The notes under the pieces were generated by a model. It did not search any database. It saw nothing but the letters and a program-made list of their open reading frames with translations, and was not told the DNA's origin. A stretch of 64,000 nt of DNA. Source: Levilactobacillus bambusae. GTDB taxonomy: Bacteria > Bacillota > Bacilli > Lactobacillales > Lactobacillaceae. A program made the position numbers and the translations under genes. Each line of letters opens with the position of its first letter. Positions within the stretch are counted from its first letter, which is position 1. Location: contig NZ_QCXQ01000002.1 in assembly GCF_003124125.1 (NCBI RefSeq), forward strand, positions 706,799 through 770,798, in the 5' to 3' direction. This document shows positions 1,004 to 48,591 of the stretch, piece after piece.

Positions 1004-1040
1004 GGGTGTGGAACTTCTCGCTTACTTTCGAGGATTAACG
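1004..1040 (+). repeat. Palindromic intergenic repeat, 5' half only (copy 1)
   Basis: It matches the 5' half of the repeat family: AGGGTGTGGA, then a TCGAGGATTAACG core. The inner hairpin and the 3' half are missing, and the sequence runs straight into the rpsR terminator. Confidence 0.65.
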
Positions 1041-1046
1041 GTGCTC

Positions 1047-1082
1047 ACAAAAAAAGGGACCCGGATTTTCATCCGAATCCCT
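1047..1082 (-). terminator. Terminator of the rpsF-ssb-rpsR operon
   Basis: On the minus strand an AGGGATTCGGAT stem pairs with ATCCGGGTCCCT and is followed by seven T, 15 nt beyond the rpsR stop. Confidence 0.85.
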
Positions 1083-1097
1083 CACCGAAACTAAAGA

Positions 1098-1334
1098 CTA
1101 GTCTTCAGTAACGAATGGCATTAAGCCCATGATACGTGAACGCTTGATAGCGATCGTTAACTTACGTTGGTTCTTAGCGCTAGTGCCCGTAACACGACGA
1201 GGTAAAATCTTACCACGTTCTGAAACGAACCGCTTTAATAAGTCAGTATCTTTGTAATCGATGTAATCGATGTGGTTGGCTGCAATAAAGTCAACCTTAC
1301 GACGGCGACGGCCGCCACGACGTTGGTTAGCCAT
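1098..1334 (-). CDS. rpsR: 30S ribosomal protein bS18
   Basis: A 78-residue basic protein, the usual length for bS18. It has the R-G-G-R-R-R-R-K start and the central block [11 protein letters not shown] followed by [11 protein letters not shown], both hallmarks of the family. It binds 16S rRNA next to bS6 in the 30S platform. It is the last gene of the rpsF-ssb-rpsR operon, 21 nt after ssb, with an AGGAGG site 6 nt before its ATG. It lies just before the operon terminator. Confidence 0.98.
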
Positions 1335-1355
1335 AGTTGTCCCTCCTCAGATTAA

Positions 1356-1919
1356 TTAGAATGGTAAATCATCATCAGAGATATCAATCTGGTCACCAGA
1401 GTTAGCAAATGGATCGGCTGGGGCATTCCCACCGTTATTGTTGCTTGGTGCGGAATTTCCACCGCGGTTACCGCCATTATTGCTGCCTCCAGCAAATGGA
1501 TTTACGTCTCCTTGAGGAGCGTTGTAGTTATTGTTGTTATTGGTATTACCACCATTATTGTTACCATAGTTGCCGTTATTTCCAGAGTTGGAATTAGCGG
1601 ACCGGGGTTCCAAGAATGACCAGTTATCAACCACAACTTCAGTGACGTATACGCGCTGACCCTGTTGGTTTTCGTAGTTCCGGGTTTGGAGCCGGCCTTC
1701 GAGTCCAACGAGGGATCCCTTATGCATGTAGTTTGCAAAGGTTTCCGCTGGTTTACGCCAAATAACACAACTGATGAAGTCAGCTCCGCGTTCACCGCTT
1801 GAGTTGGTGAAACGCTGATCGACGGCTAACGTAAATGTTGCTACGGCAGCACCGCTTTGTGTGTATCGCAATTCCACATCCCGCGTAAGGCGTCCAGTAA
1901 GTACGACTCGGTTGATCAT
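1356..1919 (-). CDS. ssb: Single-stranded DNA-binding protein
   Basis: 187 residues. The N-terminal OB fold (about residues 1-105) starts [12 protein letters not shown] and contains the F-I-S-C-V-I-W-R-K segment. It is followed by a low-complexity Asn/Gly-rich linker and the acidic tip D-D-D-L-P-F, which in this family recruits replication and repair partners. It coats ssDNA at forks and during recombination. The position between rpsF and rpsR is the standard Firmicutes arrangement. The start ATG has a GAGAGGAGA site upstream. The N/G linker is encoded by repetitive AAC/GGT-rich DNA, which could vary in length between strains. Confidence 0.98.
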
Positions 1920-1955
1920 AGCTGAAATCTCCTCTCAATTAAAACAGTTTAGTGA

Positions 1956-2258
1956 TTAGTTTTTGTCATCGCGCTTAACGATCATGTGACGTAAAATGCC
2001 ATCATTGATCTTTGAAAGACGGTCAAATTCGTTTAGGGCTTCATCGTTAGATGCAGTCACATTAGTAATGTGGTATACACCTTCGTTGTAGCCTCCAATT
2101 TCGTAAGCAAACTTACGCTTAGACCAGTCTTTGGAATCAACAATTGTTGCACCATTGTCAGACAAGATCTTGTCAAAACGGTCGATCAAGGCCGTCTTGT
2201 CGTCATCGTTTAAGTCTGGACGAACGATGTAAGTAATTTCGTAATTAGTCGTTTCCAT
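1956..2258 (-). CDS. rpsF: 30S ribosomal protein bS6
   Basis: 100 residues, normal for bS6, beginning [14 protein letters not shown] with the conserved central K-R-K-F-A-Y-E-I motif and R-H-M-I-V-K near the end. It forms the S6:S18 heterodimer on 16S rRNA. It is the first gene of the operon, with an AAGGAGG site and a -35/-10 promoter about 100 nt upstream. The leader between them can fold so that the Shine-Dalgarno is paired (see the leader entry), which fits the known autoregulation of this operon by S6:S18. Confidence 0.98.
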
Positions 2259-2268
2259 GAATGTTACA

Positions 2269-2314
2269 CCTCCTTATGGACTTTAGGCTCCCTCCCAATG
2301 AAGGGAGCAAGGAG
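2269..2314 (-). promoter_or_regulatory. rpsF leader structure sequestering the Shine-Dalgarno
   Basis: On the minus strand a GCTCCC/GGGAGC hairpin is enclosed by CTCCTT pairing with the AAGGAG of the rpsF Shine-Dalgarno. This is where the S6:S18-binding leader sits in other bacteria. I did not recognise the conserved CCG bulge of the published motif, so the match is positional only. Confidence 0.45.
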
Positions 2315-2350
2315 AGTTATCTATCAAATGATAGATACTCACGAATTAAT

Positions 2351-2379
2351 AGTATAGCAGAATATTAAGGTTAAGGCAA
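2351..2379 (-). promoter_or_regulatory. Promoter of rpsF operon
   Basis: On the minus strand TTGCCT, 17 nt, then TATACT, about 90 nt upstream of the rpsF start. Confidence 0.7.
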
Positions 2380-2458
2380 GGCCGTCTTGGGATGTTAGAA
2401 TTGCGATCTATCATATAGGTTCGCACCGAATCCCTAATTTGACGAAAAAAACGCAAAA

Positions 2459-2495
2459 AAAAGCAATCAGCTCCCCCCGGACACTGATTGCTTTT
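2459..2495 (-). terminator. Terminator, probably of the TetR gene
   Basis: AAGCAATCAG pairs with CTGATTGCTT around a C-rich loop, and on the minus strand it runs into a long T tract. It lies about 340 nt beyond the TetR stop. In the interval 2500-2836 I see only AT-rich sequence with a small hairpin (2519-2540) and no convincing gene. Confidence 0.7.
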
Positions 2496-2836
2496 ACGCC
2501 GTAAATTGGTTTGCCATTTGATTCCCGCTCAGGAATCAAAGTAACGTTAAGATACGATTAAGAGGTTAAGAAATTAAGATTAAATTATCAATTACGATAA
2601 TTACCCAACCACGGCTTGATAATAGGACATGGGAATTTGAGTAGAAACAGTGAACAACTCCATCTACAAGTATTATATTAACAAATATTTGCAGGGTCGC
2701 TGAACACTTCAGCCGTTCGTTGTCCAATTTTCACGAACGTTTTTCTAACATAGTGTTCTTTTTACGTGAACAATACAAAACACTGTGACAAGTTTCACTG
2801 AACATTTATGTGCATTTATGTCCAGTTCACCCTTGT

Positions 2837-3424
2837 TTACGCCTTCTGCATATCGGAAATAATCCGCCGGAGCATCTTTGTTTCGCTTATTGCTAGCTCT
2901 TCTGGCGTATGCCGGCGTTCCTTAGGCATTAAAAGCCAATAGTAAATCGCATTATAAATTCCGCCAACGTAAAATTGTAAATAGAAATCATCTTCGGTAA
3001 CTTCGCGGTGAATCTGACGACCGACGAATGACGCACAGGACGCCCCGAGCACCGTTGTAAACTTTTGCCGGAACATCATGGACCCGTGCATCCCCATGAA
3101 CGCTGCATATAACGACTCATGAAGTAAAATATACCGGTGCATTTTGAGCAGTGGTGTAAAGGGTTCGTTCGGACTAAACGCCCGAAAATCCAGGTAGCGC
3201 CAGTCGTTTAATATTGATTCCATCCCGCCAAGCGCAATTTCTTCCAGATACCGATACAAGCCATCAATATCGGAAAAATAAGTGTAGAAGGTAGTTCGCG
3301 AGATATGCGCGGAATCACAAATTTTACGAACCGTAATTTGACTGGCATCCATTTGCTGTAACAGAGTTGAAAACGCTGTTTGAATCTTCTGTTCCGTATC
3401 TGTATTCAAGTTCAAGCACCCCAA
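2837..3424 (-). CDS. TetR/AcrR-family transcriptional regulator
   Basis: 195 residues. The N-terminal helix-turn-helix (about residues 10-58) reads ...F-S-T-L-L-Q-Q-M-D, I-T-V-R-K-I-C, S-R-T-T-F-Y-T-Y-F. The last motif is the family signature of the recognition helix. The C-terminal 130 residues would bind an unknown ligand, with a T-E-E-L-A region typical of the TetR_C variants in lactobacilli. The start is taken as TTG at 3424 with no clear Shine-Dalgarno; nearby in-frame TTG codons a few residues on are alternatives. The gene stands alone between the ribosomal operon and gyrA, so its target cannot be read from context. Confidence 0.85.
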   Translation of the reverse strand: MGCLNLNTDTEQKIQTAFSTLLQQMDASQITVRKICDSAHISRTTFYTYFSDIDGLYRYLEEIALGGMESILNDWRYLDFRAFSPNEPFTPLLKMHRYILLHESLYAAFMGMHGSMMFRQKFTTVLGASCASFVGRQIHREVTEDDFYLQFYVGGIYNAIYYWLLMPKERRHTPEELAISETKMLRRIISDMQKA

Positions 3425-3510
3425 GTTCTATAACCAAATTGGTCGTTCAAGATAGCGTTCTGACGCCTAGACTTGTTCCCTCTTAATCTCTAACAACAGA
3501 GCTTACCAAA

Positions 3511-3558
3511 TTAAAATGGGAACGTCTACAAGTTTTTCACCTGCAGCGTTCCCATTGA
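3511..3558 (-). terminator. Terminator of gyrBA
   Basis: AATGGGAACG pairs with CGTTCCCATT around a 22-nt loop. On the minus strand the stem is followed by TTAATTT, 10 nt past the gyrA stop. Confidence 0.75.
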
Positions 3559-3566
3559 GTCATTCT

Positions 3567-6206
3567 TTAACGATCGAGGTCGGAACCATCAGACTGGTTT
3601 TCCGCTTCCTCTTCTTCATGTTTAATTTCACGATCCGCAAGTGCCTGAATGTCGCTAGGATCGGCGGCATTCGCAGCGGGCGCAACTGGTCGGGCAGCAT
3701 CCGAAACAGCCTCACGGGTCATTTCTTCGGCACTCAACTCTGCATCCACGGCATCCACAGGCTGATCATCTTCCTTATCAACCTTGGCCATTGTGGCAAC
3801 CTTAGACTCTTCGTTCATCCGCATCAGATGAACCCCGACGGTTGCCCGACCCGTGGTTGAGACATCGTTCACGTCAAACCGAATCATGACCCCGGAATCG
3901 GTGACCAGCATAATATCTTCGTCACCGCGAACGGTTGTTAACCCGGCTAACGGTCCGTTCTTTTCAACGATATTCGCCGTCTTAATCCCTTTACCACCCC
4001 GACCCTTAATTGGGTATTCGGTCGCAGGGGTCTGTTTGCCATAACCCTTTTCGGAGATGACAAAGACGTTATCATCCGGGTGCAGAACGCTCGCGCCAAT
4101 TACATAGTCGTTATCGCGCAGGCGAATTCCGCGAACCCCTGAGGCACTCCGGCCCATGGACCGAACGGCACCTACGTTAAAACTAACGGCGTAACCTTCG
4201 TGGGTCCCGATAATCATGTTCATTTCCTTCGTGACGATGGAAACGTCGATGAGTTCGTCACCCTCCTTGAGGTTGATGGCCTTCAGTCCGTTACTCCGGA
4301 TGTTTTCAAACTCAGCAACTGCCGTCCGCTTAACCGTCCCGTTTACCGTGGTAAAGAAGAGATCCCGGTCACCATTATCACCCGTTTGCTGAACATCAAT
4401 CACGTCTTGAATATGTTCATCGTTATTAATGCCTAACAGGTTGATAATCGGAATTCCCTTGGCGGTCCGACCGTACTCAGGGATTTCGTACCCCTTCATC
4501 CGGTAAACCTTCCCGGTATTGGTAAAGAAGAGCAGGGCATCGTGCGTTGAGCCGGAAACGAGGTGTTCGATGAAGTCATCATCGTGCACCCCCATCCCCT
4601 GGACGCCCTTGCCACCCCGGTTTTGGGCCTTAAAATCAGACGTTTTTAACCGTTTAATGTAGCCGTTATGCGTCAGAGAAATCACAATGTCTTCCTGAGC
4701 AATGAGGTCTTCATCTTCTAGGCTAGTTACTTCACCCACCATAAGTTCGGTTCTGCGGTCGTCCCCGTATTTATCAGCAATTTCCATCAATTCGTTGTAG
4801 ATGAGGGCCTGCTGCTTTTCGCGGGATGCCAGGATGGATTTGTACTCAGCGATGTCCTTTAACAGGCCTTCGTACTCCTTTTCCACCTTGTCACGTTCCA
4901 AACCGGTTAACCGAACCAGTCGCATGTCTAAGATGGCTTGCGCCTGTTTGTCAGATAAGCTGAACCGGCTCATTAATTCATTCTTGGCAATTTCAGAGGT
5001 TTGAGACTGCCGGATGAGGGTCACAATTTCATCAATGTGATCGAGGGCAATCTGTAACCCTTCCAAGATATGAGCCCGGGCTTCCGCCTTCTTTAAGTCA
5101 AACTGGGTCCGGCGAACAATGACCTCAAGTTGGAATTCCAAGTAATGCTGCAGGATTTCCTTTAGCCCCATCACTTTCGGTGCACCGTTGACAATTGCCA
5201 GCATATTAATCCCAAAGGTGGTTTGCATCAAGGTTTCCTTGAACAGGTTGTTTAAAACGACTTCTGCGCTTGAGTCACGCCGAATGTCGATCACAACCCG
5301 TTCGCCATCCCGGTCAGACTCATCGTTAATGTCGGTGATTCCCTCTAACCGTTTGTCACGCACGAGCTCAGCAATGTGTTCGATTAACCGGGCCTTATTC
5401 ACCATGTACGGTAATTCAGTCACGATTATCCGCTGTTTGCCGGTCTTACTGGTTTCAATCTCCGTCTTAGACCGTAAGATAATGGTTCCCCGACCCGTTT
5501 CATAGGCCTTCCGAATGGCGGATTTGCCCATCACAATGGCCCCAGTTGGGAAGTCTGGCCCAGGTAAAACATCCATCAAGTCAGCCGTAGTGGCATCGGG
5601 GTTATCCATTAACACGTGAATGGCGTTGATAACTTCCTGCAGGTTATGAGGCGGCACGTTCGTTGCCATCCCAACCGCAATTCCGGATGCTCCGTTAACC
5701 AATAAGTTAGGGAACCGGGACGGTAAAACAACGGGTTCGCGCTCCGTACCATCGTAGTTATCTTGGTAATCAATCGTATCTTTATTGATGTCCCGAATCA
5801 TTTCCCGGGAAATTTTACTTAATCGGGCTTCGGTATACCGCATTGCGGCAGCCTTATCTCCATCAACCGACCCAAAGTTTCCGTGGCCGTCAACCAGCAT
5901 ATACCGGTAAGAAAAGTCCTGGGCCATCCGCACCATGGCTTCGTAAATCGACGAATCACCGTGGGGGTGGTACTTACCCATGACGTCCCCGACAATTCTG
6001 GCTGACTTACGGTACGGTTTATCAGGGGTAACCCCTAATTCATGCATATCATAGAGAATCCGGCGGTTAACCGGCTTCATCCCGTCCCGAACATCAGGCA
6101 AAGCCCGCGCCACAATAACACTCATAGCGTAGTCCAAGAAGGACGACTTCATCGTGTTCGAGAGGTTGACATTGGTAATCCGACCAGATGTGTTTTCATC
6201 TGCCAA
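3567..6206 (-). CDS. gyrA: DNA gyrase subunit A
   Basis: About 879 residues. Breakage-reunion domain first, with the quinolone-determining region [14 protein letters not shown] and the catalytic Tyr in [10 protein letters not shown] long coiled-coil tower and a six-bladed beta-pinwheel follow, with a GyrA box variant Q-N-R-G-G-K-G-V. An acidic C-terminal tail ends the protein. The Ser and Glu at the usual quinolone-resistance positions are unchanged. It forms the A2B2 gyrase with GyrB, 31 nt upstream. I chose the TTG at 6206 because GGAGGG lies 7 nt before it; the ATG at 6221, which would add five residues, has no such site. Confidence 0.97.
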
Positions 6207-15784: not shown

Positions 15785-15828
15785 GTGTGGGCGTTATTAG
15801 TAGAAATAATTTAGGTGGGGGGAGTCTC

Positions 15829-15949
15829 ACACATCCCATAACGTGCTCCGTCAAGTAGACTTCTGCGGCTAACAAGATGATGGAAAAAGGTTCTGAGAAC
15901 CAAACCTCTCTCCATCATCACGTTAGTCCTCAAAGTCTGACCACTTGAC
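15829..15949 (-). repeat. Palindromic intergenic repeat (copy 2a)
   Basis: The minus-strand unit has the core TTTGAGGACTAACGT and GTTAGCCGCAGAAGTCT. The outer arms GTCAAGT/ACTTGAC and the inner arms GATGATGGA/TCCATCATC are unique to this copy. Confidence 0.8.
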
Positions 15950-15950
15950 A

Positions 15951-16069
15951 CCACACTTCCCATAACGTGCTCGCCTTCCCAGATTTCTGCGGTTAACCAG
16001 ATAAGAAGAAATTGGCAAAGAGCACCAACCTCTTCTTATCCCGTTAATCCTCAAAATCTAAGTGGGGGA
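15951..16069 (-). repeat. Palindromic intergenic repeat (copy 2b)
   Basis: A tandem neighbour of copy 2a at a period of about 122 bp, with the CCCATAACGTGCTC spacer repeated. The inner arms are GATAAGAAG/CTTCTTATC. The core motifs CGGTTAACC and CCTCAAAATCT are kept. This pair fills most of the 540-base gap between jag and mnmE. Confidence 0.8.
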
Positions 16070-16084
16070 GTCTCACACTTCCCA

Positions 16085-21609: not shown

Positions 21610-22506
21610 ATGAAGTTTATTGACCGAGAAGTCCCGTTTGTGGCGGCTCAAACCCAGTTTGTGAAACAGCAACAATTAAACCTTTCCTATGCCGAGGGTG
21701 ACCGGCACCAATTAGACGTTTACTTGCCAAACGAAGGGGCGGGCCCGTTTCCGACCATCATTGATATATACGGGGGCGGCCTCTACTTTGGGGAGAAGAG
21801 TTCACATAAAATGGAAGGGGCCCTTCGGCTTTTAGAACGTGGGTTTGCGGTGGTTTCGCCAAATTATTCGCTGTCGTGGCAACGCCGGTACCCGGCCCAA
21901 ATTTTTGAAATTAAGGCGGCCATTCGGTACGTCCGGGCCCACGCCAAGGGTCTGCAGCTTGATCCTGACAACTTCTTTTTAATGGGGGAATCCTCCGGGG
22001 CCCAGTTAGCCATGATGGTGGCAGCAACGGATGCCGTTTCTGAAATGCAAAACGACTTAGGCGGAAATTTGACGGTTGACAGCCGGGTCAACGCGGTGAT
22101 TGCTTCGTACGGCCCCTATGACTTCCGGCTGATGCGGCCCCAGTTTGAAACATTAGGGATCACCCCGAAGTTTCCGGAGACCGGGGCGGCCGATTCGTTT
22201 GAAGGTATGATGTTTGGAAAAACGAAGCCAGCGAACGCAAAGGCCGCCGTGGCAAAGGCCAACCCAGCTAACTGGTTAACGCCACAGATGCCGCCGGTGC
22301 TCCTATACGCGGGTACGGCGGATGCCGTGGTTCCCTACATCCAAAGCGTTAACCTGGCGAGCGAACTCGTGAGTGTCCTAGGTGAACGAAAGGTGGAATG
22401 GCACTGGCTTGAAGGTGCCCACCACGGCCCAGCCGACTTTTTGACACCGGTGGTTTACGACCAAAAAGAAGCTTTCCTCCGGCGCTTTGAAACGGCAACG
22501 GAATGA
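21610..22506 (+). CDS. Alpha/beta-hydrolase esterase (HSL/BD-FAE-like)
   Basis: 298 residues. The oxyanion region I-D-I-Y-G-G-G-L-Y-F-G replaces the usual HGGG (Tyr for His), and the nucleophile elbow is G-E-S-S-G-A-Q-L-A. The acid is likely in G-T-A-D-A-V-V-P, and the base His in E-G-A-H-H-G-P-A-D-F. No signal peptide, so cytoplasmic. The family hydrolyses short acyl or aryl esters. AAGGAGG precedes the ATG. Copy 3a of the palindromic repeat begins on the base after the stop. Confidence 0.88.
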   Translation: MKFIDREVPFVAAQTQFVKQQQLNLSYAEGDRHQLDVYLPNEGAGPFPTIIDIYGGGLYFGEKSSHKMEGALRLLERGFAVVSPNYSLSWQRRYPAQIFEIKAAIRYVRAHAKGLQLDPDNFFLMGESSGAQLAMMVAATDAVSEMQNDLGGNLTVDSRVNAVIASYGPYDFRLMRPQFETLGITPKFPETGAADSFEGMMFGKTKPANAKAAVAKANPANWLTPQMPPVLLYAGTADAVVPYIQSVNLASELVSVLGERKVEWHWLEGAHHGPADFLTPVVYDQKEAFLRRFETATE

Positions 22507-22623
22507 AGGGTGTGGAAAGCCTCGCTAACTCTCGAGGATTAACGTAAGCAGAAAAAAATACTGGGCTTTAGTATTATTTGCTGCTTGGGTTAACCGGAAA
22601 GAGTTGAGGCTTGGAACCCGACT
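22507..22623 (+). repeat. Palindromic intergenic repeat (copy 3a)
   Basis: Starts directly after the esterase TGA with AGGGTGTGGA. Outer arms AAGCCTC and GAGGCTT, core CGAGGATTAACGT and GGGTTAACCGG, inner arms TAAGCAG and CTGCTT around a TACTGGGCTTTAGTA hairpin top. Confidence 0.85.
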
Positions 22624-22624
22624 G

Positions 22625-22741
22625 AGGGTGTGGAACCGTTCGGTAGATCTTGAGGATTAACGGGGTCATCGAAAAATGCTGGGCTTGGGCATTATTCGAT
22701 GACCTGGTTAAACGCAGAGATCTGAGCGGTGGAACCCAACT
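22625..22741 (+). repeat. Palindromic intergenic repeat (copy 3b)
   Basis: Outer arms ACCGTTC/GAGCGGT, AGATCT on both sides, inner arms GTCATCGAA/TTCGATGAC. The inner hairpin nearly matches copy 5, 18 kb away. Confidence 0.85.
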
Positions 22742-22860
22742 AAAGGGTGTGGAGTCACTCGGTAGAGCTTGAGGATTAACGTAAGAAACAAAATATGCTG
22801 GGCTTTAGCATAATTTGTTTCTTGGGTTATCCGCAGAGATCTGAGTGATGGAACCTAACT
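22742..22860 (+). repeat. Palindromic intergenic repeat (copy 3c)
   Basis: Outer arms TCACTC/GAGTGA, inner arms AAGAAACAAA/TTTGTTTCTT, top hairpin TATGCTGGGCTTTAGCATA. Confidence 0.85.
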
Positions 22861-22908
22861 AAAGGGTATGGAGACCCTCGGTAGATCTTGAGGCTTGCAC
22901 CCCGACTA
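22861..22908 (+). repeat. Palindromic intergenic repeat, internally deleted (copy 3d)
   Basis: The 5' part GGTAGATCTTGAGG is joined directly to the terminal GCACCCCGACTAA, so the whole inner hairpin is missing. The 500-base gap from 22507 to 23010 is filled by copies 3a-3d and the palindrome at 22909. Confidence 0.65.
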
Positions 22909-22970
22909 ACCACCCCAAATAAGGATGATGACCAAGATCGATCTTGGTCATCATCCTTATTTGGGGTGGT
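22909..22970. repeat. Perfect 62-bp palindrome, possible terminator of the Bcr/CflA gene
   Basis: Thirty-one bases are followed by their exact complement with no loop, centred between 22939 and 22940 (ACCAAGATCGATCTTGGT). It lies between the repeat array and the convergent exporter gene. No T-run follows on either strand. Confidence 0.9.
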
Positions 22971-27832: not shown

Positions 27833-27848
27833 AAAGCTGTAATTAAAT

Positions 27849-27926
27849 CGGCGATGGTGTTCGCCGCAATATTCGAAAGAATTGATGACGCCTACTCGAT
27901 CCTTAGGGGTGGAGTAGGCGCTTTTT
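27849..27926 (+). promoter_or_regulatory. Structured eno leader with terminator-like hairpin
   Basis: Hairpins CGGCGA/TCGCCG (27849-27866) and ATTCGAAAGAAT are followed by GCCTACTC/GAGTAGGC (27890-27919) ending CGCTTTTT. The last one sits 11 nt before the eno Shine-Dalgarno. Confidence 0.6.
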
Positions 27927-27950
27927 CTATATCTAGGAGGGATTTTTGTT

Positions 27951-29237
27951 ATGTCAGTTTACATTGATAAGGTTAAAGCGCGCGAAGTATTTGATTCCCG
28001 GGGTAACCCAACTGTCGAAGTTGACGTTATTCTGTCAGATGGTGTCCGTGGCCGGGCCGAAGTACCATCAGGTGCCTCAACCGGTGAGAAAGAAGCCGTT
28101 GAACTCCGTGACGGTGGGTCACGTTTAGAGGGCAAGGGAGTTTTAAAGGCCGTCGACAATGTGAACACTGAAATTAACGATGCCCTACATGGCAAGGATC
28201 CATTCAACCAAGCCGACATCGATAACACGATGATTAAACTAGATGGCACACCAAACAAGAGTCGTCTGGGGGCCAACGCGATTTTAGGTGTTTCCATGGC
28301 GACCGCCCGGGCTGCTGCTAATGAACAGGGCGTTCCATTGTACCGGTACTTAGGCGGCACCGACCTTGAAATCCCACAAACGTTCCACAACGTCATCAAT
28401 GGTGGGGTTCACGCTCAAAATGATATTGATACGCAAGAATTCTTAATTACCCCAATCAAGCGGACCACCACTCGTGAAGGAATTGAAATGATTGCCAACA
28501 CCTACCACACCCTGAAGAAAGTTCTTCATGATGCTGGCTACGACACCGGTTTAGGTGATGAAGGTGGTTTTGCGCCTAACCTGAAGACCACTGAAGACGC
28601 CGTTAAGATGCTTTACAAGGCGATCGAAGAAGCCGGCTACAAGCCTGGTGTTGATATCGCCATTGCGATTGATCCCGCTTCCTCAGAATTTTACGATGAA
28701 AAGACCGGGAACTATAACTTCGAAGGCAGCGAAAAGACGCCTAAGGAAATGGCTGACTACTACGAAAACCTGGTTAAGGAATTCCCTGCCATCATTTCCA
28801 TTGAAGATCCGTTCTCCGAAGACGACTGGGATAGTTTCGTTAAGTTTACAAAACGCATGGGCGGCAAGATTCAAATTGTCGACGATGACTTAGTGGTAAC
28901 GAACCCTGAAATCATCCGGAAGGCCGTCAAGGACGGTGCTGGTAACGCCATCTTAATTAAGCTGAACCAAATTGGAACGGTAACTGAAACCCTTGAAGCC
29001 ATGCGGGTTGCCCGTAAGAATAACTTCAAGACCATGATTTCCCACCGTTCAGGTGAAACGGGCGACACCTTCATTTCCGACTTCGCCGTTGCAACGAACG
29101 CTGGCGAAATGAAGTCCGGTGCCATGGCCCGCTCCGAACGGGTTGAAAAGTACAACCAACTTCTCCGAATCGAAGAAGAACTAGGAGAAGCCGGCGACCG
29201 CATCTCGGTGTACCCAAATGATGTGGATAAGGACTAG
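27951..29237 (+). CDS. eno: Enolase
   Basis: 428 residues. The conserved start [26 protein letters not shown] near residue 40, [10 protein letters not shown] and S-H-R-S-G-E-T-G-D are all present, so substrate loops and the Mg site are intact. It converts 2-phosphoglycerate to phosphoenolpyruvate. CTAGGAGGGA precedes the ATG. It stands alone instead of in a gap-pgk-tpi cluster. The stop codon TAG lies inside the first GACTAGGTGC motif of repeat copy 4a. Confidence 0.98.
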
Positions 29238-29357
29238 GTGCGAATCATTCCGTTTAGATTTTGAGGATTAACGTCAATACACGCGTATAGCCTGGGTTTG
29301 GGCTATGCGCGTGTATTTTTGTTAACCGGAGAAATCTGGGGTGAAGAGCCCGATATG
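29232..29357 (+). repeat. Palindromic intergenic repeat (copy 4a)
   Basis: Begins at GACTAGGTGC over the eno stop. Inner arms AATACACGCGTATAGCC and GGCTATGCGCGTGTATT; core TTTTGAGGATTAACGT and GTTAACCGGAGAAATCT. Confidence 0.82.
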
Positions 29358-29480
29358 ACTAGGTGCTGACCCAACCGGTTAGAACTTGAGCACTAACGTA
29401 ATAATCAGGATAATGCCTGAACTGTGGCATTATCCTGATTATTTTGTTAGGCGGAGAGGTCTGGTTGGGGAAGCCTGATA
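29358..29480 (+). repeat. Palindromic intergenic repeat (copy 4b)
   Basis: A tandem copy starting at the next GACTAGGTGC. Outer arms CCCAACC/GGTTGGGG, inner arms AATAATCAGGATAATGCC and GGCATTATCCTGATTATT. Confidence 0.82.
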
Positions 29481-29515
29481 AAACTAGGTGCTGCCCCAGC
29501 CGGTTCCCCTAACGT
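29481..29515 (+). repeat. Palindromic intergenic repeat, remnant (copy 4c)
   Basis: A third ACTAGGTGC with CCCAGCCGGTT joined to CCCTAACGTCAC; the inner hairpin and 3' half are lost. Confidence 0.55.
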
Positions 29516-34240: not shown

Positions 34241-34283
34241 AAAAAAGAGCGCAAACCAACACAAAAAGTGTTGGCTTGCGCTC
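34241..34283 (-). terminator. Riboswitch expression-platform terminator for ade
   Basis: On the minus strand GAGCGCAAGCCAACAC pairs with GTGTTGGTTTGCGCTC, then six T, directly after the purine aptamer. Confidence 0.9.
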
Positions 34284-34290
34284 ACTTTCT

Positions 34291-34355
34291 GCTTATAGTC
34301 CAACGTTTACGGCGTTGGGTAGAGACTGCCGTCCATATTACGGCCTTATATAAAC
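34291..34355 (-). promoter_or_regulatory. Purine riboswitch aptamer (guanine class) upstream of ade
   Basis: Minus strand: P1 GTTTATA/TATAAGC, P2 GCCGT/ACGGC with loop AATATGG, J2/3 AGTCTCTACC, P3 CAACG/CGTTG with loop CCGTAAA, then GACTATA. The C in GAC is the discriminator position (C for guanine/hypoxanthine, U for adenine). Confidence 0.93.
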
Positions 34356-34361
34356 AAATAA

Positions 34362-35513
<1,152 letters not shown>

Positions 35514-38926: not shown

Positions 38927-39994
38927 ATGTACTTAGCAACCCATGAACTAAAGGCAAATAAGGGGCGATACGGCCTAGTAATCCTGATCCTCTTTCTTAT
39001 TGCCTACCTGATCTATTTTTTAACGGGCTTGGCATATGGCCTGGCGTCAGATAACCGGTTAGCGGTAGATCAGTGGCATGCGAATCGGATTGGTATTAGC
39101 CAGTACGCCAACTCGAACCTAGCAGCGTCCACCCTAGGACCGGATAAGATTAACCTTGCTAACTTGAAGCCAACCCAAGCACCCCTTGGGGAAATGGCGG
39201 CGGTCGTCAACAAGGTTGGGAGTCAGAAGGACCTGAATGCCACCATTTTTGGAATTCAGTTTGATAGCTTCATTAAACCCAAGCTGATTAAGGGGCACCA
39301 GGTAACCACCAATCATCAGGTCGTCGTTGATGAACGACTTGGCAACGGCACGGTGAAGGTGGGGGATCAGCTTCATATTAACGGGAGTCAGGCCTCCTAC
39401 CATATTGTGGGGTTAACCCGGAATAACCTGTACGGAACGTTACCGGTCGTGTACACGACGTTAGGGACCTACGATCAATTGAGGTACGGGAGTGCCCGGG
39501 TTAAAAATGTGAGCGGAATTGTTTACCAGCGGGCGAGCGACGTTCAGCAGATTAAGGGTATTAAAAATTTGACCCCACAAGCGCTGATCACTCATATTCC
39601 TGGCTATAGCGCCCAAAATTCGACGTTTAGCCTCATGATTGGGGCACTGTTTATTATTGTGCTTTTTATTGTCGGGATTTTTATGTACATTCTGACCCTT
39701 CAAAACATTAGTGTATACGGGATTATGCGGGCCCAAGGGATTAGTAACCGAACGCTGATTACGAGCGTTCTTGATCAATCGTTAATCCTTGGGGTGATTG
39801 GAATTGGATTAGGACTGATCGCTAACCAGCTGACGGTGCTGATTTTACCGGCGGGAATACCGTATGCCAATAACCTCATGCTGGTCGCTTTATTTTCGAT
39901 CGGATTACTAGCTATGGTCGTTTTGGGAGCTATTTTCTCAGTTCGACAAATTTTAAAGATTGATCCGATTCGTGCGATTGGAGGGACAGCCTAA
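38927..39994 (+). CDS. FtsX-type ABC transporter permease (HrtB-like)
   Basis: 355 residues. The start M-Y-L-A-T-H-E-L-K-A-N-K-G-R-Y-G and one N-terminal helix are followed by an extracellular domain (about 45-230) and three C-terminal helices, the MacB/FtsX topology. The opening resembles the HrtB heme-exporter permeases of lactic acid bacteria. Substrate assignment is inference; no heme regulator is adjacent. AAAAGGAGG precedes the ATG. Its stop overlaps the ATPase start (TAATG). Confidence 0.8.
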   Translation: MYLATHELKANKGRYGLVILILFLIAYLIYFLTGLAYGLASDNRLAVDQWHANRIGISQYANSNLAASTLGPDKINLANLKPTQAPLGEMAAVVNKVGSQKDLNATIFGIQFDSFIKPKLIKGHQVTTNHQVVVDERLGNGTVKVGDQLHINGSQASYHIVGLTRNNLYGTLPVVYTTLGTYDQLRYGSARVKNVSGIVYQRASDVQQIKGIKNLTPQALITHIPGYSAQNSTFSLMIGALFIIVLFIVGIFMYILTLQNISVYGIMRAQGISNRTLITSVLDQSLILGVIGIGLGLIANQLTVLILPAGIPYANNLMLVALFSIGLLAMVVLGAIFSVRQILKIDPIRAIGGTA

Positions 39995-40677
39995 TGTCAG
40001 TATTAGAGTTAAAACGGGCCGCTAAAACGTTTAAATCCGGCGATACGGAAACGCAAGCGGTTCAGCCGCTCGACTTAACCGTTGATGCGGGGGAGTTTAT
40101 TATTCTAACGGGTCCATCGGGGTCAGGTAAAACGACGCTCTTAACCATGATGGGCGGTCTATTGACCCCAACGAGCGGGCAAATTTTATTGAACGGTCAG
40201 GATTTAGGACGGATGAAGGAAAAGCAGCTGAGCCAAGTTCGGTTTGCGGACTATGGGTTCATCTTACAATCATCTAATTTAATCCCGTTTCTAACGGTGG
40301 ACGAGCAGTTTCGGCTGGTCGATCGGTTAAATAAGAAATCTGACGAAGCCTATGAAGCTGAACTCTTGGCTGCCATGGGCATGGCCGGCGAGAAACAAAG
40401 CAAGCCAAATCAGCTTTCCGGTGGTCAAAAGCAGCGGGTTGCCATCGCCAGGGCACTTTACAATCATCCGGCGGTTATCTTTGCGGATGAACCCACCGCC
40501 GCCTTAGATTCTGAGCGGGCCGCTCAAGTGGTTCAAACTCTTCGGGACCAGGCCAAGGAACATCACGTTGCCGTCATTATGGTGACGCACGACGATGACC
40601 TCTTAAAGGCCGCCGACCGGATTTATAACATGGTGGATGGTAAATTAAAGGATGTGGAATCACTCGGTAGATCTTGA
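39994..40677 (+). CDS. ABC transporter ATP-binding protein (HrtA/LolD-like)
   Basis: 227 residues. Walker A G-P-S-G-S-G-K-T-T-L-L, Q-loop F-I-L-Q-S-S-N, signature L-S-G-G-Q-K-Q-R-V-A, Walker B V-I-F-A-D-E-P-T-A-A-L-D, H-loop V-T-H-D-D-D. This group drives FtsX-type permeases. The last eight residues (D-V-E-S-L-G-R-S) and the TGA are encoded by repeat copy 5, which starts inside the gene; the ancestral end was probably different. This does not touch any catalytic motif, so the protein is likely functional. Confidence 0.9.
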   Translation: MSVLELKRAAKTFKSGDTETQAVQPLDLTVDAGEFIILTGPSGSGKTTLLTMMGGLLTPTSGQILLNGQDLGRMKEKQLSQVRFADYGFILQSSNLIPFLTVDEQFRLVDRLNKKSDEAYEAELLAAMGMAGEKQSKPNQLSGGQKQRVAIARALYNHPAVIFADEPTAALDSERAAQVVQTLRDQAKEHHVAVIMVTHDDDLLKAADRIYNMVDGKLKDVESLGRS

Positions 40678-40765
40678 GGAGTAACTGAGTCATCGGAAAA
40701 TGCTGGTTTTGGGCATTATTCGATGACTTGGTTAGCCGCAGAGATCTGAGTGGTGTAACCCAACT
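40650..40765 (+). repeat. Palindromic intergenic repeat (copy 5), overlapping a gene end
   Basis: GGATGTGGAATCACTCGGTA opens the unit inside the ATPase gene. The core AGATCTTGAGG supplies its TGA. Inner arms GTCATCGGAAAATGC and GCATTATTCGATGAC match copy 3b closely. It ends ACCCAACT. Confidence 0.88.
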
Positions 40766-43553: not shown

Positions 43554-43569
43554 ATCCATGAATCAATAC

Positions 43570-43582
43570 TATACGACGTATA
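43570..43582. promoter_or_regulatory. Candidate PadR operator
   Basis: TATACGACGTATA, a perfect dyad around a single A, lies 17 nt after the -10, where binding would block transcription of padR and the two genes behind it. Confidence 0.6.
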
Positions 43583-43602
43583 ACATTAGAGGTGAACGTA
43601 AG

Positions 43603-44570: not shown

Positions 44571-45354
44571 ATTCGGTTTATTTGTGGCCATCTTTGGTTT
44601 CATCCTACTGGTGCTAGGACTAGCCAACCACGGTCTTAAAGGAATTATCTGGCATGACAATCATTTTGTGACCGTTGAAGAAACGGCGGCTACCTATCAA
44701 CCTCAGCACGTCACCAAACTCGTCTTGAAAACCAGCGATCCAGTAACCATTAAAACGGGAAATCGATTTCGGGTTAAGACGACCTCCGTCGTTGGAGAGA
44801 AAGTTCAGGTGATTAAAGAGGGTCACCAATTAACCATTAAGGATGGCCAAAATCAGGGGAACCAGGAGTCAGCGCTAGATGGATCCCCGGTTAATCTGGA
44901 TCGAGTAGAGATTACGGTTCCGACAACCCAAAAATTAACGGCTGTTGAAGGCGATTCCCAGCTAAGTGACGTGACGATGACAGGGATTTCTGCTGCTAAC
45001 ATTCGCCTGCAAAATCGCGGCAACACCACGTTAACCAACGTGCAGGCCAAGACAATTCAAGTTCGGAATGGTAGGGATCTGTACTTGACTAACGTTACGG
45101 CTCCCGCAATGACGTTAAGTAGTGTATACGGCAACGTGCATTTGAATCGGAACCAGACCACTGCATTAACGGCTGAAGCCAAGCGGGGCGATGTCAACGT
45201 GATTACGAATCAACGGACGGGAATTCAGGCCGTTGGAAAAGAAGTTACCGTCTTTGGACACCATACCAACCGCGTGAATAATAGTGCAGACCAGCAGTAT
45301 CGGTTGACCGCTAAGCGGGGTCACGTTCTCGTTGTAACCCATGCCCAGCAGTAA
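44554..45354 (+). CDS. DUF4097-family beta-repeat protein, membrane-anchored
   Basis: 266 residues. One N-terminal hydrophobic segment (about 8-27) is followed by a repetitive beta-helix-like region with strand patterns such as V-E-I-T-V-P, L-S-D-V-T-M-T, T-T-L-T-N-V-Q-A and L-Y-L-T-N-V-T-A. This is the DUF4097 adhesin-like fold seen in LiaG-type proteins, expected outside the membrane. AAGGAGGG precedes the ATG. It is the last gene of the operon, with a terminator 30 nt on. Confidence 0.85.
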   Translation: MKKTFKFGLFVAIFGFILLVLGLANHGLKGIIWHDNHFVTVEETAATYQPQHVTKLVLKTSDPVTIKTGNRFRVKTTSVVGEKVQVIKEGHQLTIKDGQNQGNQESALDGSPVNLDRVEITVPTTQKLTAVEGDSQLSDVTMTGISAANIRLQNRGNTTLTNVQAKTIQVRNGRDLYLTNVTAPAMTLSSVYGNVHLNRNQTTALTAEAKRGDVNVITNQRTGIQAVGKEVTVFGHHTNRVNNSADQQYRLTAKRGHVLVVTHAQQ

Positions 45355-45381
45355 GTGAAAAAATAAAGGTAAGCAAAACAA

Positions 45382-45425
45382 AAGCCGGTCATCATCCTCG
45401 CTGTGATGATGTACCGACTTTTTTG
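45382..45425. terminator. Terminator of the PadR operon
   Basis: AAGCCGGTCATCATC pairs with GATGATGTACCGACTT, then TTTTT. From 45430 to 45615 there is also a GCGTATCA/TGATACGT hairpin (about 45524-45545) but no gene. Confidence 0.85.
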
Positions 45426-45615
45426 CGTCATGAACTTTTGGTTAGCCCCTGAGGCCAACTTCTGTAAAACCGCTAATTAAAGCGGGTAAATGATCGTTTA
45501 TAAAACGTCCCCCGAAGTCATGAAGCGTATCACTCTTTGATACGTTCATTATAGTATCAGAAATCGAATCAAAAGGGGTGGAAGAAGCTCACGACTTTTG
45601 GAATCCGTAACCTTC

Positions 45616-46926
45616 TTAATCAATGTTTAAAATGATCAGGAAGATGACAAATACCACGGCTAACCCGTACATCATGGCGCCGACTTCCTTACCGCGTTTA
45701 GCAGCAATCATGGTTAATGGGTAGGTAATAAAGCCTAAGGCAATTCCATCTGAAATACTGTAGGTGAGGGGCATGCCAATGACCATTAAAAAGGCGGGGG
45801 CTGCGATTTCAAAATCTTCCCAGTGGATTTGTTTTAGGGATTGGGCCATTAAAATTCCAACGATAATTAGGGCAGGAGCGGTCACCTGACTCGTCACAAC
45901 GGTGAGCATAGGCGAGAAAAATGAACCAAGCAGGAAGAGCACGCCGACAACGATCGCGGTAAATCCGGTACGGCCACCAACGGCAATTCCGGCAGAGGAT
46001 TCCACGAAGGCCCCCATGGGTGATGTTCCGAGGAGGGATCCCACAACCATCGTGGTGGAGTCCGCAGAGAGGGCCTTTCCGACGCGGGGAATTTTGTTAT
46101 CTTTTACCAGACCAGCTTGGGTTGCTAAACCGACTAATGTCCCGGTTGTATCAAAGAAGGTCACAAGGAGGAACGTCAGCACCACTACGAGTAACTGAAT
46201 GGTATCGATACTTCCGATATGAGTTAGACCAACTAAGAACGTTGATTTAATACTTGGGACTGCCGCTACCCAGTGGGTGGGCATTGGAATAATTCCGGTC
46301 ACTAAACCTAAAATGACGTTGGCGACCATCCCAATGAAGATGGCTCCCGGGATTTTTCGTGCCATGAGGATTAACGTGAGGAGCAACCCAAAGATTGTCA
46401 GCCAGGTTGACTGAACGCCGAATGATCCTAATCCGACCACGGTGTCCTTGTTGGCAACGACTAGTCCTCCTTCGTTTAAGCCCAGAAAGGCAATGAACAT
46501 CCCAATTCCGCCGCTAATCGCCATTTTAAGGTCGGCAGGAATTGCATCCACTACTTTTTCCCGAATCTTAAAGGCAGTTAAGATCATAAATAAAATTGAA
46601 GCGGCAAAAACGCCCGCTAAGGCCGTCTGCCATGGAACATGCATGCCAATTACTACGGAGTAAGAGAAAAAGGCGTTAATTCCAAGGCTGGCTGAAATGG
46701 CGATTGGATAATTGGCTAAGATCCCCATTAAGAAACAACCGAACGCACTTGCTAAGGCGGTGGCGGTAAAGACCGCACCCTTATCCATTCCGGACGCTCC
46801 TAAGACGTTAGGATTTACGAAGAGAATGTAGGCCATGGAAACGAACGTCGTTAAACCCGCAATGAATTCAATCCGAAAGCTGGTGCCCATCTCGTCAAAG
46901 TGAAAATAATCTGCAATCTTTTGCAT
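45616..46926 (-). CDS. NCS2/AzgA-family purine permease (guanine/hypoxanthine type)
   Basis: 436 residues with about 12 helices. The start has G-T-S-F-R-I-E-F-I-A-G-L-T-T-F-V-S-M-A-Y-I, the AzgA/PbuG signature, with N-A-F-F-S-Y-S-V-V in helix 3 and F-F-D-T-T-G-T-L-V-G and E-S-S-A-G-I-A-V-G-G-R-T-G further on. It takes up hypoxanthine, guanine or adenine by proton symport. PurBox-like sites upstream and the nearby ade and guaB genes agree with a purine role. GGAGGG lies before the ATG. Confidence 0.93.
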   Translation of the reverse strand: MQKIADYFHFDEMGTSFRIEFIAGLTTFVSMAYILFVNPNVLGASGMDKGAVFTATALASAFGCFLMGILANYPIAISASLGINAFFSYSVVIGMHVPWQTALAGVFAASILFMILTAFKIREKVVDAIPADLKMAISGGIGMFIAFLGLNEGGLVVANKDTVVGLGSFGVQSTWLTIFGLLLTLILMARKIPGAIFIGMVANVILGLVTGIIPMPTHWVAAVPSIKSTFLVGLTHIGSIDTIQLLVVVLTFLLVTFFDTTGTLVGLATQAGLVKDNKIPRVGKALSADSTTMVVGSLLGTSPMGAFVESSAGIAVGGRTGFTAIVVGVLFLLGSFFSPMLTVVTSQVTAPALIIVGILMAQSLKQIHWEDFEIAAPAFLMVIGMPLTYSISDGIALGFITYPLTMIAAKRGKEVGAMMYGLAVVFVIFLIILNID

Positions 46927-46950
46927 TAAAGTATGCCCTCCAAATTAGCA

Positions 46951-46983
46951 AAACACGAACGTTTTTGGATATCGTTCGTGTTT
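46951..46983. promoter_or_regulatory. Leader hairpin of the purine permease
   Basis: AAACACGAACG pairs with CGTTCGTGTTT; on the minus strand a short T-run follows, just before the Shine-Dalgarno. It may act as an attenuator or terminate transcription from the other side. Confidence 0.5.
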
Positions 46984-47032
46984 TTATGCTTAAATCACTG
47001 TCTATAGTGTACGATATTTTATTGTTAAAATC

Positions 47033-47090
47033 AATAACCGAACTTAAAAAGAATTCAAAACCGAAAAGTTCGAAAAACCGAACATTTATG
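47033..47090. promoter_or_regulatory. PurBox-like repeats upstream of the purine permease
   Basis: CCGAAC occurs at 47038 and 47078 in the contexts AATAACCGAACTT and AAAAACCGAACAT, close to the PurR box AWWWCCGAACWWT. A degenerate CCGAAA (47061) and an inverted GTTCG (47068) lie between. Confidence 0.6.
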
Positions 47091-47166
47091 AAATTGGACG
47101 GGGGTTTGCATCCGGGGATTAACCGGGTTATATTTTAGGAAGAAATGAAAATGAGGAGATTGCTTG

Positions 47167-47775
47167 ATGACAACGATTTTAGTTTTAGGTCAGGATCAAA
47201 CGGCGTTAATGGTTGCCAAACAGTTAGCGTCATCATCCACAGTTAAGGTGCACTTAATGGTGGCTGAATCCAACGGGGTTCCTGATAATCTTCCCGACCA
47301 AATTACTATTTTTCAGGGTGATTTAACGCAGCCGGAGTCCTATGAACGAGTTTTAGATGGTGTTGGTTACTTGTATTCCGGGTTAGAGGGATCGGGAGTC
47401 GATCTAGCCCTGGAAGCCGTCTTTGATGAGCTAAGGATTCGTCGGCAGGCCCTTACCCGAACCGTCATGCTCACGACGCTTGGGGTTGATCAGGAACTTA
47501 CTTCCCCCATGGCCTATCCGGGAATTTTAGACGTTTCAGGCTACCTAAACGAGCAGCGATTTGCGGCCAAGGTAATTGATGAGGCAGAATTTCCTTACAC
47601 TCTATTACGTGCCGGTGAACTAGTAGATGGACCAGCCGAACGTCCCCGGCTAATTTCTGAGGGTACTCCCGTTCAACCAACCCCAGTTTCACGTGAAACA
47701 ATTGCCACCCTTGCCACTCAAATCTTGTTAGGTGGAGGTTATGATTATCAATCACTGGGAGTTATTCAGGCGTAG
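47167..47775 (+). CDS. NmrA/SDR-like NAD(P)-binding protein
   Basis: 202 residues. A Rossmann start I-L-V-L-G-Q-D-Q-T-A-L-M-V-A keeps only part of the glycine motif. F-Q-G-D-L-T-Q-P is the typical acidic strand of NmrA-type oxidoreductases, and Y-T-L-L-R-A-G-E-L-V-D matches the later conserved block. It is probably a nucleotide-binding sensor or a small reductase. The ATG at 47167 follows GAGGAG by 8 nt. A near-consensus parS site lies inside the gene, encoding V-S-R-E-T. Confidence 0.75.
   Translation: MTTILVLGQDQTALMVAKQLASSSTVKVHLMVAESNGVPDNLPDQITIFQGDLTQPESYERVLDGVGYLYSGLEGSGVDLALEAVFDELRIRRQALTRTVMLTTLGVDQELTSPMAYPGILDVSGYLNEQRFAAKVIDEAEFPYTLLRAGELVDGPAERPRLISEGTPVQPTPVSRETIATLATQILLGGGYDYQSLGVIQA
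47685..47700. promoter_or_regulatory. parS-like site 4, inside a gene
   Basis: AGTTTCACGTGAAACA has the exact consensus core; only the first base differs. It is the best of the four candidates. Confidence 0.75.
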
Positions 47776-47869
47776 TCCAGTCAAAAAACGAAATGTGAAC
47801 TTAATGGGACAATGTGTCTGTCTTTTAGACCAAAATCTGGTAAAATTAAGCGTGTAGAGGTGAAAATAC

Positions 47870-48226
47870 ATGTCAATTAACGTCACTGCCGCACAACTTG
47901 AAATGATTAAGCAACAAATGAGCGAAGCAAATCAGCAATCCCACTTCGTCATTTTTAAAACGATTGAGAAAAAAACGGGTCGAATTCAGCGCCTAATTAC
48001 GGATCATAGCAGTTATGAAATGATTCGTCGGGATCATGATGAGATGGAACTCGTTATTGAGCGCGATATTGTTCCCATTACGGACGCCCTCGCACGGTGG
48101 GCAGTTGCCGAAAATATGGCAGCTACCAACGGAGAACAAGCCCAAGTGGGTCGGGATTTAGAGGACTGTATGAATGCGGTTCTCGTTGAAAATAAATTAC
48201 CGGCTAACGGGCCCGCAAGCTATTAA
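47870..48226 (+). CDS. Hypothetical protein, 118 residues
   Basis: I do not recognise the family. It is soluble, starts M-S-I-N-V-T-A-A-Q-L-E-M-I-K-Q-Q-M, has a beta-rich middle (H-F-V-I-F-K-T-I-E-K-K) with R-R-D-H-D-E-M-E-L-V, and an acidic helical end. No signal or membrane segment. GAGGTG 8 nt before the ATG and a strong terminator behind support a real gene. It lies 95 nt after the NmrA-like gene in the same direction. Confidence 0.75.
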   Translation: MSINVTAAQLEMIKQQMSEANQQSHFVIFKTIEKKTGRIQRLITDHSSYEMIRRDHDEMELVIERDIVPITDALARWAVAENMAATNGEQAQVGRDLEDCMNAVLVENKLPANGPASY

Positions 48227-48250
48227 GTTAGCTGATTATGGAACAACTAA

Positions 48251-48300
48251 AACCCCCGGCTAAACCTGATTAAGCAGATCAGGTTTAGCCGGAGGTTTTT
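48251..48300. terminator. Terminator after the 118-residue hypothetical gene
   Basis: AACCCCCGGCTAAACCTGAT pairs with ATCAGGTTTAGCCGGAGGTT, then TTT. Confidence 0.88.
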
Positions 48301-48301
48301 A

Positions 48302-48354
48302 TGGCTTTTTACGTTAAGCCTTGAGAGTTAATCGAAATGCTCCACGTCCTTTTA
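48302..48354 (-). repeat. Palindromic intergenic repeat, partial (copy 6c)
   Basis: Minus-strand 5' half: GGACGTGGAGC... CTCAAGGCTTAACGT. The 3' half is missing. Confidence 0.55.
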
Positions 48355-48474
48355 ATCGGGTTGCAAGCCTCAACTCTTTCCGGTTAACCCAAGAAACAAA
48401 TAATACTAAAACCCAGTATTTTTTGCTTCTTACGTTAAGCCTCGAGAGTTACCGAGGCTTTCCACACTTTTTTA
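48355..48474 (-). repeat. Palindromic intergenic repeat (copy 6a)
   Basis: Outer arms AAGCCTCGG/GAGGCTT, core CGAGGCTTAACGT and GGGTTAACCGG, inner arms AAGAAGCAAA/TTTGTTTCTT. Close to copy 3a in its outer arms. Confidence 0.85.
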
Positions 48475-48591
48475 GTTGAGTTCCACCGCTCAGATCTCTG
48501 CGGATAACCAAGGTATTGAATAATGCTAAAGCCCAGCGTTTTTCAATACCTCAGTTATTCCTCAAGATCTACCGAGCGGTTCCACAACCTG
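48475..48591 (-). repeat. Palindromic intergenic repeat (copy 6b)
   Basis: Starts right behind the xylosidase stop. Outer arms ACCGCTC/GAGCGGT, AGATCT both sides, inner arms AGGTATTGAA/TTCAATACC. The gap 48227-48591 is filled by the terminator and copies 6a-6c. Confidence 0.87.

Follow-up and report, generated by a model that had tools for sequence, protein, structure and literature searches.

Copies of the element in the window

The stretch of Levilactobacillus bambusae DNA analysed here (64,000 nt of contig NZ_QCXQ01000002.1, referred to as the window) carries copies of a structured repeat, the element of this study, beside genes as different as those of an alpha/beta hydrolase-type protein, an enolase, an ABC-transporter ATPase and a GH43 protein. 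Reading and alignment gave ten full and five partial copies at six places (Table 1). The original prediction, made from the sequence alone, had correctly placed the repeats at six intergenic places and counted the ten full copies, but it listed four partial copies where five were found; its tandem period of about 118-126 bp agrees with the 118-125 nt measured within the arrays. Matches with at most three mismatches to the 5' core motif number nine in the window against 0.06 expected from shuffles, and those to the 3' core motif six against 0.02. These counts, together with the fold z-scores given below, rule out chance or low complexity as the source of the repeats. A CRISPR array is also ruled out, as the units are 63-87% alike and their variable part is a paired hairpin. 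The two motifs had been described as a split core, and their recurrence was confirmed; what had been taken for a split, however, is a single stem, TAAC...GTTA, whose two sides enclose a hypervariable inner hairpin.

Table 1. Copies of the element and an associated terminator-like hairpin, in positions of the whole window. Starts of partial copies, near 1003, 15837 (minus), 22863, 29485 and 48350 (minus), were placed by eye.
Position	Strand	Feature	Basis
1003..1050	+	Partial copy, 5' half only; at the A-tract passes into a GC-rich hairpin without T-tract (no terminator here by the strict rule)	
15808..15837	-	Partial copy, 5' end only, third member of array	by eye
15840..15959	-	Full copy, variant family	fold, model match
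15964..16079	-	Full copy, variant family	fold, model match
22507..22622	+	Full copy, immediately 3' of the TGA of alpha/beta hydrolase-type gene 21610-22506	
22625..22740	+	Full copy, array member two	fold, model match
22744..22859	+	Full copy, array member three	fold, model match
22863..22906	+	Partial copy without inner hairpin, last of array	by eye
22923..22956	+	Terminator-like hairpin, 14-bp stem then T-rich sequence, downstream of the 22507-22906 array	terminator rule
29235..29354	+	Full copy, starts on the TAG stop codon of enolase gene 27951-29237	fold, model match
29360..29479	+	Full copy, array member two	fold, model match
29485..29515	+	Partial copy, 5' end only	by eye
40649..40764	+	Full copy; ABC-transporter ATPase frame 39994-40677 enters the copy and ends on a TGA inside	
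48305..48350	-	Partial copy, 5' half; at the A-tract passes into a terminator-like hairpin	
48355..48470	-	Full copy, array member two	fold, model match
48475..48590	-	Full copy, one base past the stop codon of GH43 gene 48592-50223	

Structure and covariation of the unit

The unit of about 116 nt (about 113-122 nt) is one long nested hairpin. From the outside inwards it begins with an outer stem, which is short, and a variable stem, P1, about 7 bp long. On the 5' side a bulge of 3-4 nt then leads to a second variable stem, P2, of 5-7 bp. An asymmetric internal loop and a bulged A, with conserved bases, precede the conserved TAAC/GTTA stem, inside which lies the hypervariable inner hairpin P4, whose length of about 17 bp is nearly constant. 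The feet, by eye, read AGRGTG...ACCCRAC or AGAGTG...GCACGTT. Each of the ten full copies in the window folds better than all 200 of its own dinucleotide shuffles (z -5.45 to -11.64).

The stems of the element are hypervariable and yet covary, being free to change provided that both arms match. Pairing holds in 90.6% of cells across the ten window copies and in no more than 47.6% once the partners are slid, and 26 pairs have changed on both sides against at most 15. An alignment of 73 rows from this and other genomes, biased towards the model to which it was fitted and including one antisense row, gave 93.6% of cells paired (at most 47.1% slid), 38 of 41 pairs changed on both sides (at most 28 slid) and 950 double-change cells (at most 186 slid). 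No inner arms less than 60% complementary were present among the 59 copies of the L. bambusae genome and 81 of three related species, introduced below, that could be parsed. One L. bambusae copy (L008:1620-1735), alone among the 67 scanned, has the apical loop of its inner hairpin inverted relative to the common form.

Copy number and range

A covariance-model search (model R1) of the 1.97-Mb L. bambusae genome returned 78 matches, some of which are the opposite strand of the same place. There were 68 sense matches above 50 bits, and removal of a truncated match of 65 nt (L056) left 67 sense copies in 39 clusters; opposite-strand matches were dropped in all three genome sets compared. Among relatives, 37 of 59 genomes, that of L. 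bambusae counted, have a match, and in a wider sample of the Lactobacillaceae, with at most nine candidates scored per genome, matches were found in 184 of 397 genomes and 20 of 40 genera. Carriers named by a pattern scan are Pediococcus acidilactici, a Pediococcus metagenome bin, Lacticaseibacillus songhuajiangensis, Lacticaseibacillus hulanensis and Paucilactobacillus suebicus. The model search thus finds further copies in abundance, and the restriction to one genus that had been raised with the original prediction does not hold. Two genomes of the same genus, G016 and G022, both 99% complete, had no match under stricter filters, so that the family can be lost or was never gained.

Across the class a second model, R2, matched 14 of 398 genomes including that of L. 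bambusae, the other 13 belonging to two other families of the order (three genera) and to three families of other orders (three genera). In the handful of these genomes that was read, look-alikes in five other families of the class have a similar nested hairpin and partly the motifs CGnTTAG, CTGG and GGAGC, and some form tandem arrays with a period of 120-125 nt. They score far below members of the Lactobacillaceae family (best E 5.7e-13), and they may or may not share their descent with the element.

Comparisons between orthologous sites were made in a trio of genomes (G012, G021 and G027) that represent three species 94-96% identical at the enolase locus.

Placement at gene ends

Most copies are sense-oriented and lie either at the upstream gene's stop codon or immediately after a T-tract. 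Among 106 clusters from the Lactobacillaceae, 50 start between -3 and +7 nt of a co-directional stop codon where 9.4 would be expected; the proportion is 17 of 39 in L. bambusae (3.7 expected), 26 of 57 in the trio (5.0) and 7 of 10 in other Lactobacillaceae (0.7). The most frequent offset is -2 (17 of 106), at which a T joined to the element's own AG makes a TAG stop, and in some cases the frame continues into the element and stops inside it, as at window 39994-40677. The upstream gene is co-directional in 85 of the 106 clusters. Distant copies show the stop-codon start more weakly (11 of 27 against 2.1 expected). Of the remaining trio clusters, 16 (out of 57) lie behind a run of at least five T within 18 nt, 14 of these 16 with a co-directional upstream gene, and such a T-run is found at 31 of 585 positions drawn at random from the same loci outside called frames.

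In eight L. bambusae loci (L005, L007, L012, L015, L028, L029, L043 and L047) the element is, by eye, nested in a larger composite repeat, in the order of a GGGACATTAGGCCCGCTTCGC-type region with a hairpin, the element, TAAAGACAGACCACAACC, then a terminator-like hairpin whose stem varies, and last a stretch able to pair with the start. The upstream half of this composite can also be recognised by eye in the window at 900-1053, with the first partial copy.

Strand on which the fold is kept

A change from a G-C to a G-U pair on the sense strand is an A-C mismatch on the other, so that without selection for either strand both should be equally frequent. Inner stems were counted as unique parsable stems (52 from L. 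bambusae, 66 from the trio, 11 from other Lactobacillaceae and 14 distant), aligned without a preference for G-U. Wobble pairs outnumber A-C by 98 to 3 in L. bambusae, 212 to 6 in the trio and 22 to 0 in other Lactobacillaceae, or 332 to 9 when pooled, and by 12 to 3 in the distant look-alikes. The outer arms show the same direction, with 22 to 7, 31 to 3 and 2 to 0 in the three Lactobacillaceae sets (55 to 10 pooled). This strand bias supports an RNA read from the sense strand, though it is less extreme than the raw counts suggest, as will be seen below.

Exchange of hairpin content between close species

The 129 sense copies of the trio were compared by joining sites whose upstream flanks are more than 80% identical, later copies of an array counting as sites of their own. 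Of the resulting 63 sites, 29 are present in all three species, eight in two and 26 in one. In many cases the hairpin content at orthologous sites differs en bloc and resembles that of other copies in the same genome. Upstream flank identity averages 95.3% over the 95 orthologous pairs, and element identity falls below 0.8 in 40 of them, reaches at least 0.9 in 49 and lies between in only six; in 58 of the 95 a paralogue from either genome is closer than the orthologue. Tails behind the hairpin are as alike in swapped pairs (0.83 then 0.68) as in unswapped ones (0.80, 0.72), and more so than in random paralogues (0.64, 0.56), and therefore the change is confined to the hairpin.

Individual sites illustrate this. 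One pair is 100% identical upstream and nearly so downstream, and yet P1, P2 and P4 are all different; another site has three hairpin variants in the three species; at a third, P2 has changed in both arms, with P1 unaltered and one or two base differences in P4. The 85 of 129 trio copies that can be parsed fall into 18 types of P1, 11 of P2 and 42 of P4, with P2 and P4 mostly linked and P1 partly re-assorted. Several features, the inverted apical loop of L008 among them, are traces left in the DNA by events at the palindrome. Copies with non-matching arms were found by a ranking on fold energy (L017:1741 and L041:2001) and by eye (L048:2001). Decayed hairpins occur in one or two of the three species, older 5' (left-end) remnants stand before a new copy at L135, L159 and L163, and remnants of the 3' half lie behind full copies. 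For the copy at the window's enolase gene the insertion history could not be read from the two orthologous regions shown (L061 and L063), in both of which the downstream sequence is unrelated.

Empty sites and terminators

From 30 candidates for empty sites, 20 of them in the query, 14 sites occupied in a single species were aligned to the orthologous places, and two of these proved to hold decayed copies. At nine of the remaining 12 the element has taken the place of a resident hairpin. Seven of these were identified by script, each having a strong resident hairpin with arms that the filled site lacks (11768, 235350, 84328, 164803, 134694, 283666 and 332712), and two by eye (395691 and 206113, at the latter of which the script found no strong resident hairpin). 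The other three resemble plain insertions, with direct repeats that by eye are 9, about 12-13 and about 5 nt long.

In one sub-family a terminator-like hairpin follows within 110 nt downstream of 16 of 24 copies, compared with 18 of 105 other copies and 53 of 300 random windows. These figures were obtained with a strict terminator rule, preferred to a loose one that gave 20 of 24 and had no control.

Partner enzymes and vectors

The original prediction reported no transposase in the window. Genome-wide, Pfam searches of L. bambusae gave no match to Y1/RAYT-type transposases (PF01797; 0 matches, 0 candidates) or to the reverse transcriptase RVT_1 (PF00078), other transposases being outside this survey. 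As necessary partners in this genome both enzymes are rejected. Eight genomes were searched for RVT_1, which was absent from those of L. bambusae, G027, G158, G183 and G206 and present in G012, G021 and G393. As to the co-occurrence with a RAYT, 106 of the 184 element-bearing genomes, L. bambusae included, have no Y1 match, and such a transposase is therefore not needed.

With blastn, one L. bambusae copy found nothing in plasmid or phage collections, one distant copy nothing in plasmids and another nothing in phages. A plasmid- or phage-borne element is thus disfavoured for the copies tested. Two viral contigs of IMG/VR (L285:5360-5433 and L286:4010-4073) match one core pattern; a second pattern had no match among viral contigs.

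Discussion

Taken together, these results make it somewhat probable, in our judgement, that the repeats are a large family of small, non-coding and non-autonomous mobile elements which settle at gene 3' ends, form RNA hairpins and exchange their content by recombination at the DNA level. The element would be copied as a passenger, and since the L. bambusae genome has no Pfam-detectable RAYT or reverse transcriptase, it is presumably moved by another transposase or by host recombination. In the DNA its near-perfect palindrome may break or provoke template switching, and repair from another copy could then replace the hairpin through the shared ends and microhomology at A/T tracts, with terminator stems serving as junctions; an arm that no longer matches would be re-copied from the other arm or lost. 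In the RNA, a hairpin at the stop codon would become part of the upstream gene's mRNA, in its 3' untranslated region (UTR) close behind the terminating ribosome, and selection would keep the fold of the sense strand. The likeliest host role that we can predict would be similar to that of REPs, namely a barrier to 3'-5' decay and an insulator beside the terminating ribosome, by which insertion might become harmless or useful to the host. It is also possible that such an effect on decay or termination may do no more than make a parasite tolerable.

Several observations weigh against this interpretation. Much of the G-U excess in the inner stems sits at few positions, where the wobble is found in many related copies; outside these shared positions G-U outnumbers A-C by 28 to 8, and by 18 to 8 without one further position that contributes ten G-U, so that A-C may be tolerated as well. 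The left and right ends of the element differ by a few bases and there is no general target-site duplication. In L. bambusae 21 of the 39 clusters belong to neither placement class, eight of them lying in the larger composite repeat, five having a frame that enters the element and eight lying elsewhere. The expected numbers for placement assume a uniform position in the gap, which is a crude null, with genes called from open frames, and, with each orthologous site meant to be counted once, a few trio sites were counted twice since a remnant shifts the flank (L135 and L234). Copies behind a terminator would stand outside the 3' UTR of the upstream gene unless there is read-through. Finally, clear chimeras between arms are rare: among the 22 weakest folds of 196 copies inspected there were two.

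The presence or absence of copies between close species, the direct repeats at three sites and the left-end remnants of older copies would all be in keeping with a MITE-like element moved in trans by the ordinary DDE transposase of a resident insertion sequence (IS), its stems being inverted repeats and the changes of content new insertions into old ones. The outer arms do pair, but the prevailing event at empty sites is substitution of a resident hairpin and not plain insertion, and the three insertion-like cases have direct repeats of different length. Swaps, moreover, leave the upstream flank and the tail no more different than in unswapped pairs, one site has changed in P2 alone, and neither the stop-codon start nor the G-U excess is explained, so that we consider this origin unlikely. 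The G-U excess would be accounted for if the element were a beneficial 3' UTR regulatory RNA (a decay barrier, or a site for ribosome or protein binding) that is kept vertically and has simply multiplied, with mobility as a secondary matter, and the spread across the Bacilli of the same fold in similar placement, as in the distant copies at stop codons, points the same way. Against it, genomes of one genus can have anything from 0 to 60 matches, sites appear and disappear between close species, and the four host genes examined (hydrolase, enolase, ABC transporter and GH43) are unrelated; this explanation we hold to be improbable to a similar degree.

Small hairpins in intergenic arrays also bring to mind classic REPs and REPINs, which a RAYT or an IS200/605-type Y1 transposase would move as single-stranded DNA, and Y1 is indeed somewhat commoner in genomes with the element than in those without (78 of 184 against 61 of 213, Fisher p 0.0045, with no correction for kinship). 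Yet the 67 copies of L. bambusae and the 42 model matches of G012 exist in genomes without a Y1 match, as do those of more than half of the carriers, no constant tetranucleotide tag is seen by eye at the foot of the copies, and the excess of G-U points to RNA. For L. bambusae this origin is largely refuted and overall it seems very improbable, although a diverged Y1 missed by Pfam would revive it. Rather less far-fetched, but still quite unlikely, is a dedicated system in which 3'-end cassettes of hairpin and terminator are swapped at fixed gene ends by putative machinery that reads the fold and not the sequence. If that were true, hairpin variants and terminators would form a common pool that the genome reshuffles among its genes.

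Should the family of mobile hairpins that we favour be real, it would represent a common structured class of gene ends in lactic acid bacteria, and perhaps in other Bacilli, which is missing from Rfam. It would offer a natural experiment in which structure is kept while sequence is replaced in one step, and comparison of close strains would make palindrome-driven recombination, template switching and the role of hairpins near stop codons open to test. Mobile terminators that replace resident ones would furthermore be a route for the evolution of gene expression.

Relationship to known repeats

In general kind the element belongs with the small interspersed structured repeats, such as BOX, RUP, SPRITE and REP. 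The original prediction could tie the repeats to no named class and described them as an unnamed family of nested-palindrome intergenic repeats, a description that the model search and the Rfam results uphold. At the gathering score Rfam has no match to the element in the window or in nine distant loci, and relaxed searches gave nothing credible, one array having sub-threshold matches only and six L. bambusae loci none at E 0.01. A known Rfam RNA is thus rejected as far as searched. No recognised description of the family was found in the open-access literature. Unnamed stem-loop clusters have been counted in other Firmicutes (PMC2267715), so that an earlier description is possible.

What appears distinctive, from a comparison of descriptions, is that the stems are hypervariable and covary, the copies sit at stop codons, content is exchanged at fixed sites and terminators are substituted, all in one family. 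BOX, RUP and SPRITE of Streptococcus pneumoniae, the last named for its likeness to a rho-independent terminator, are small interspersed repeats with strong predicted RNA folds, as is the element, and are enriched between convergent genes and probably parasitic (PMC3049150). Again by description and not by sequence, they differ in that the available passages of that paper mention no hypervariable covarying stems, stop-codon start or exchange of content; the terms 'gene conversion' and 'compensatory' are absent from the paper, and the passages on a 'stop codon' concern frames inside BOX. REPs (PMC3733652) are 20-40 bp long, are tagged at one end by GTAG or CGTC, and have been hypothesised to act in mRNA stabilisation and termination. 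The element shares with REPs, BIMEs and REPINs the form of intergenic palindromes in arrays; it differs in its length of about 116 nt, in having no GTAG or CGTC foot by eye, and in the lack of a Y1 match in its own genome. GTAG is seen by eye inside many L. bambusae copies and not at the foot.

Other systems may be likened to the element by description only. A chromosomal repeat of the Bacillus cereus group, bcr1, is reported to have the characteristics of a mobile element, and would thus be another repeat of Bacilli with such traits. The attC sites of integrons are folded elements with a variable terminal structure between short conserved arms, as in the element, whose fold, in contrast, appears to be kept as RNA. 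A study of Escherichia coli has reportedly linked REPs near stop codons to translation.

Riboswitches in the window

Two riboswitches lie in the window. A fluoride riboswitch (RF01734) stands just before the enolase gene, the two together spanning 27841-29237 on the plus strand, and the genome has a second enolase (G000:C36) that is 56% identical to that of the window. It is possible, judging from the sequences, that the window enolase is a spare enolase under the control of fluoride. A purine riboswitch (RF00167) is located at 34276-34373 on the minus strand.

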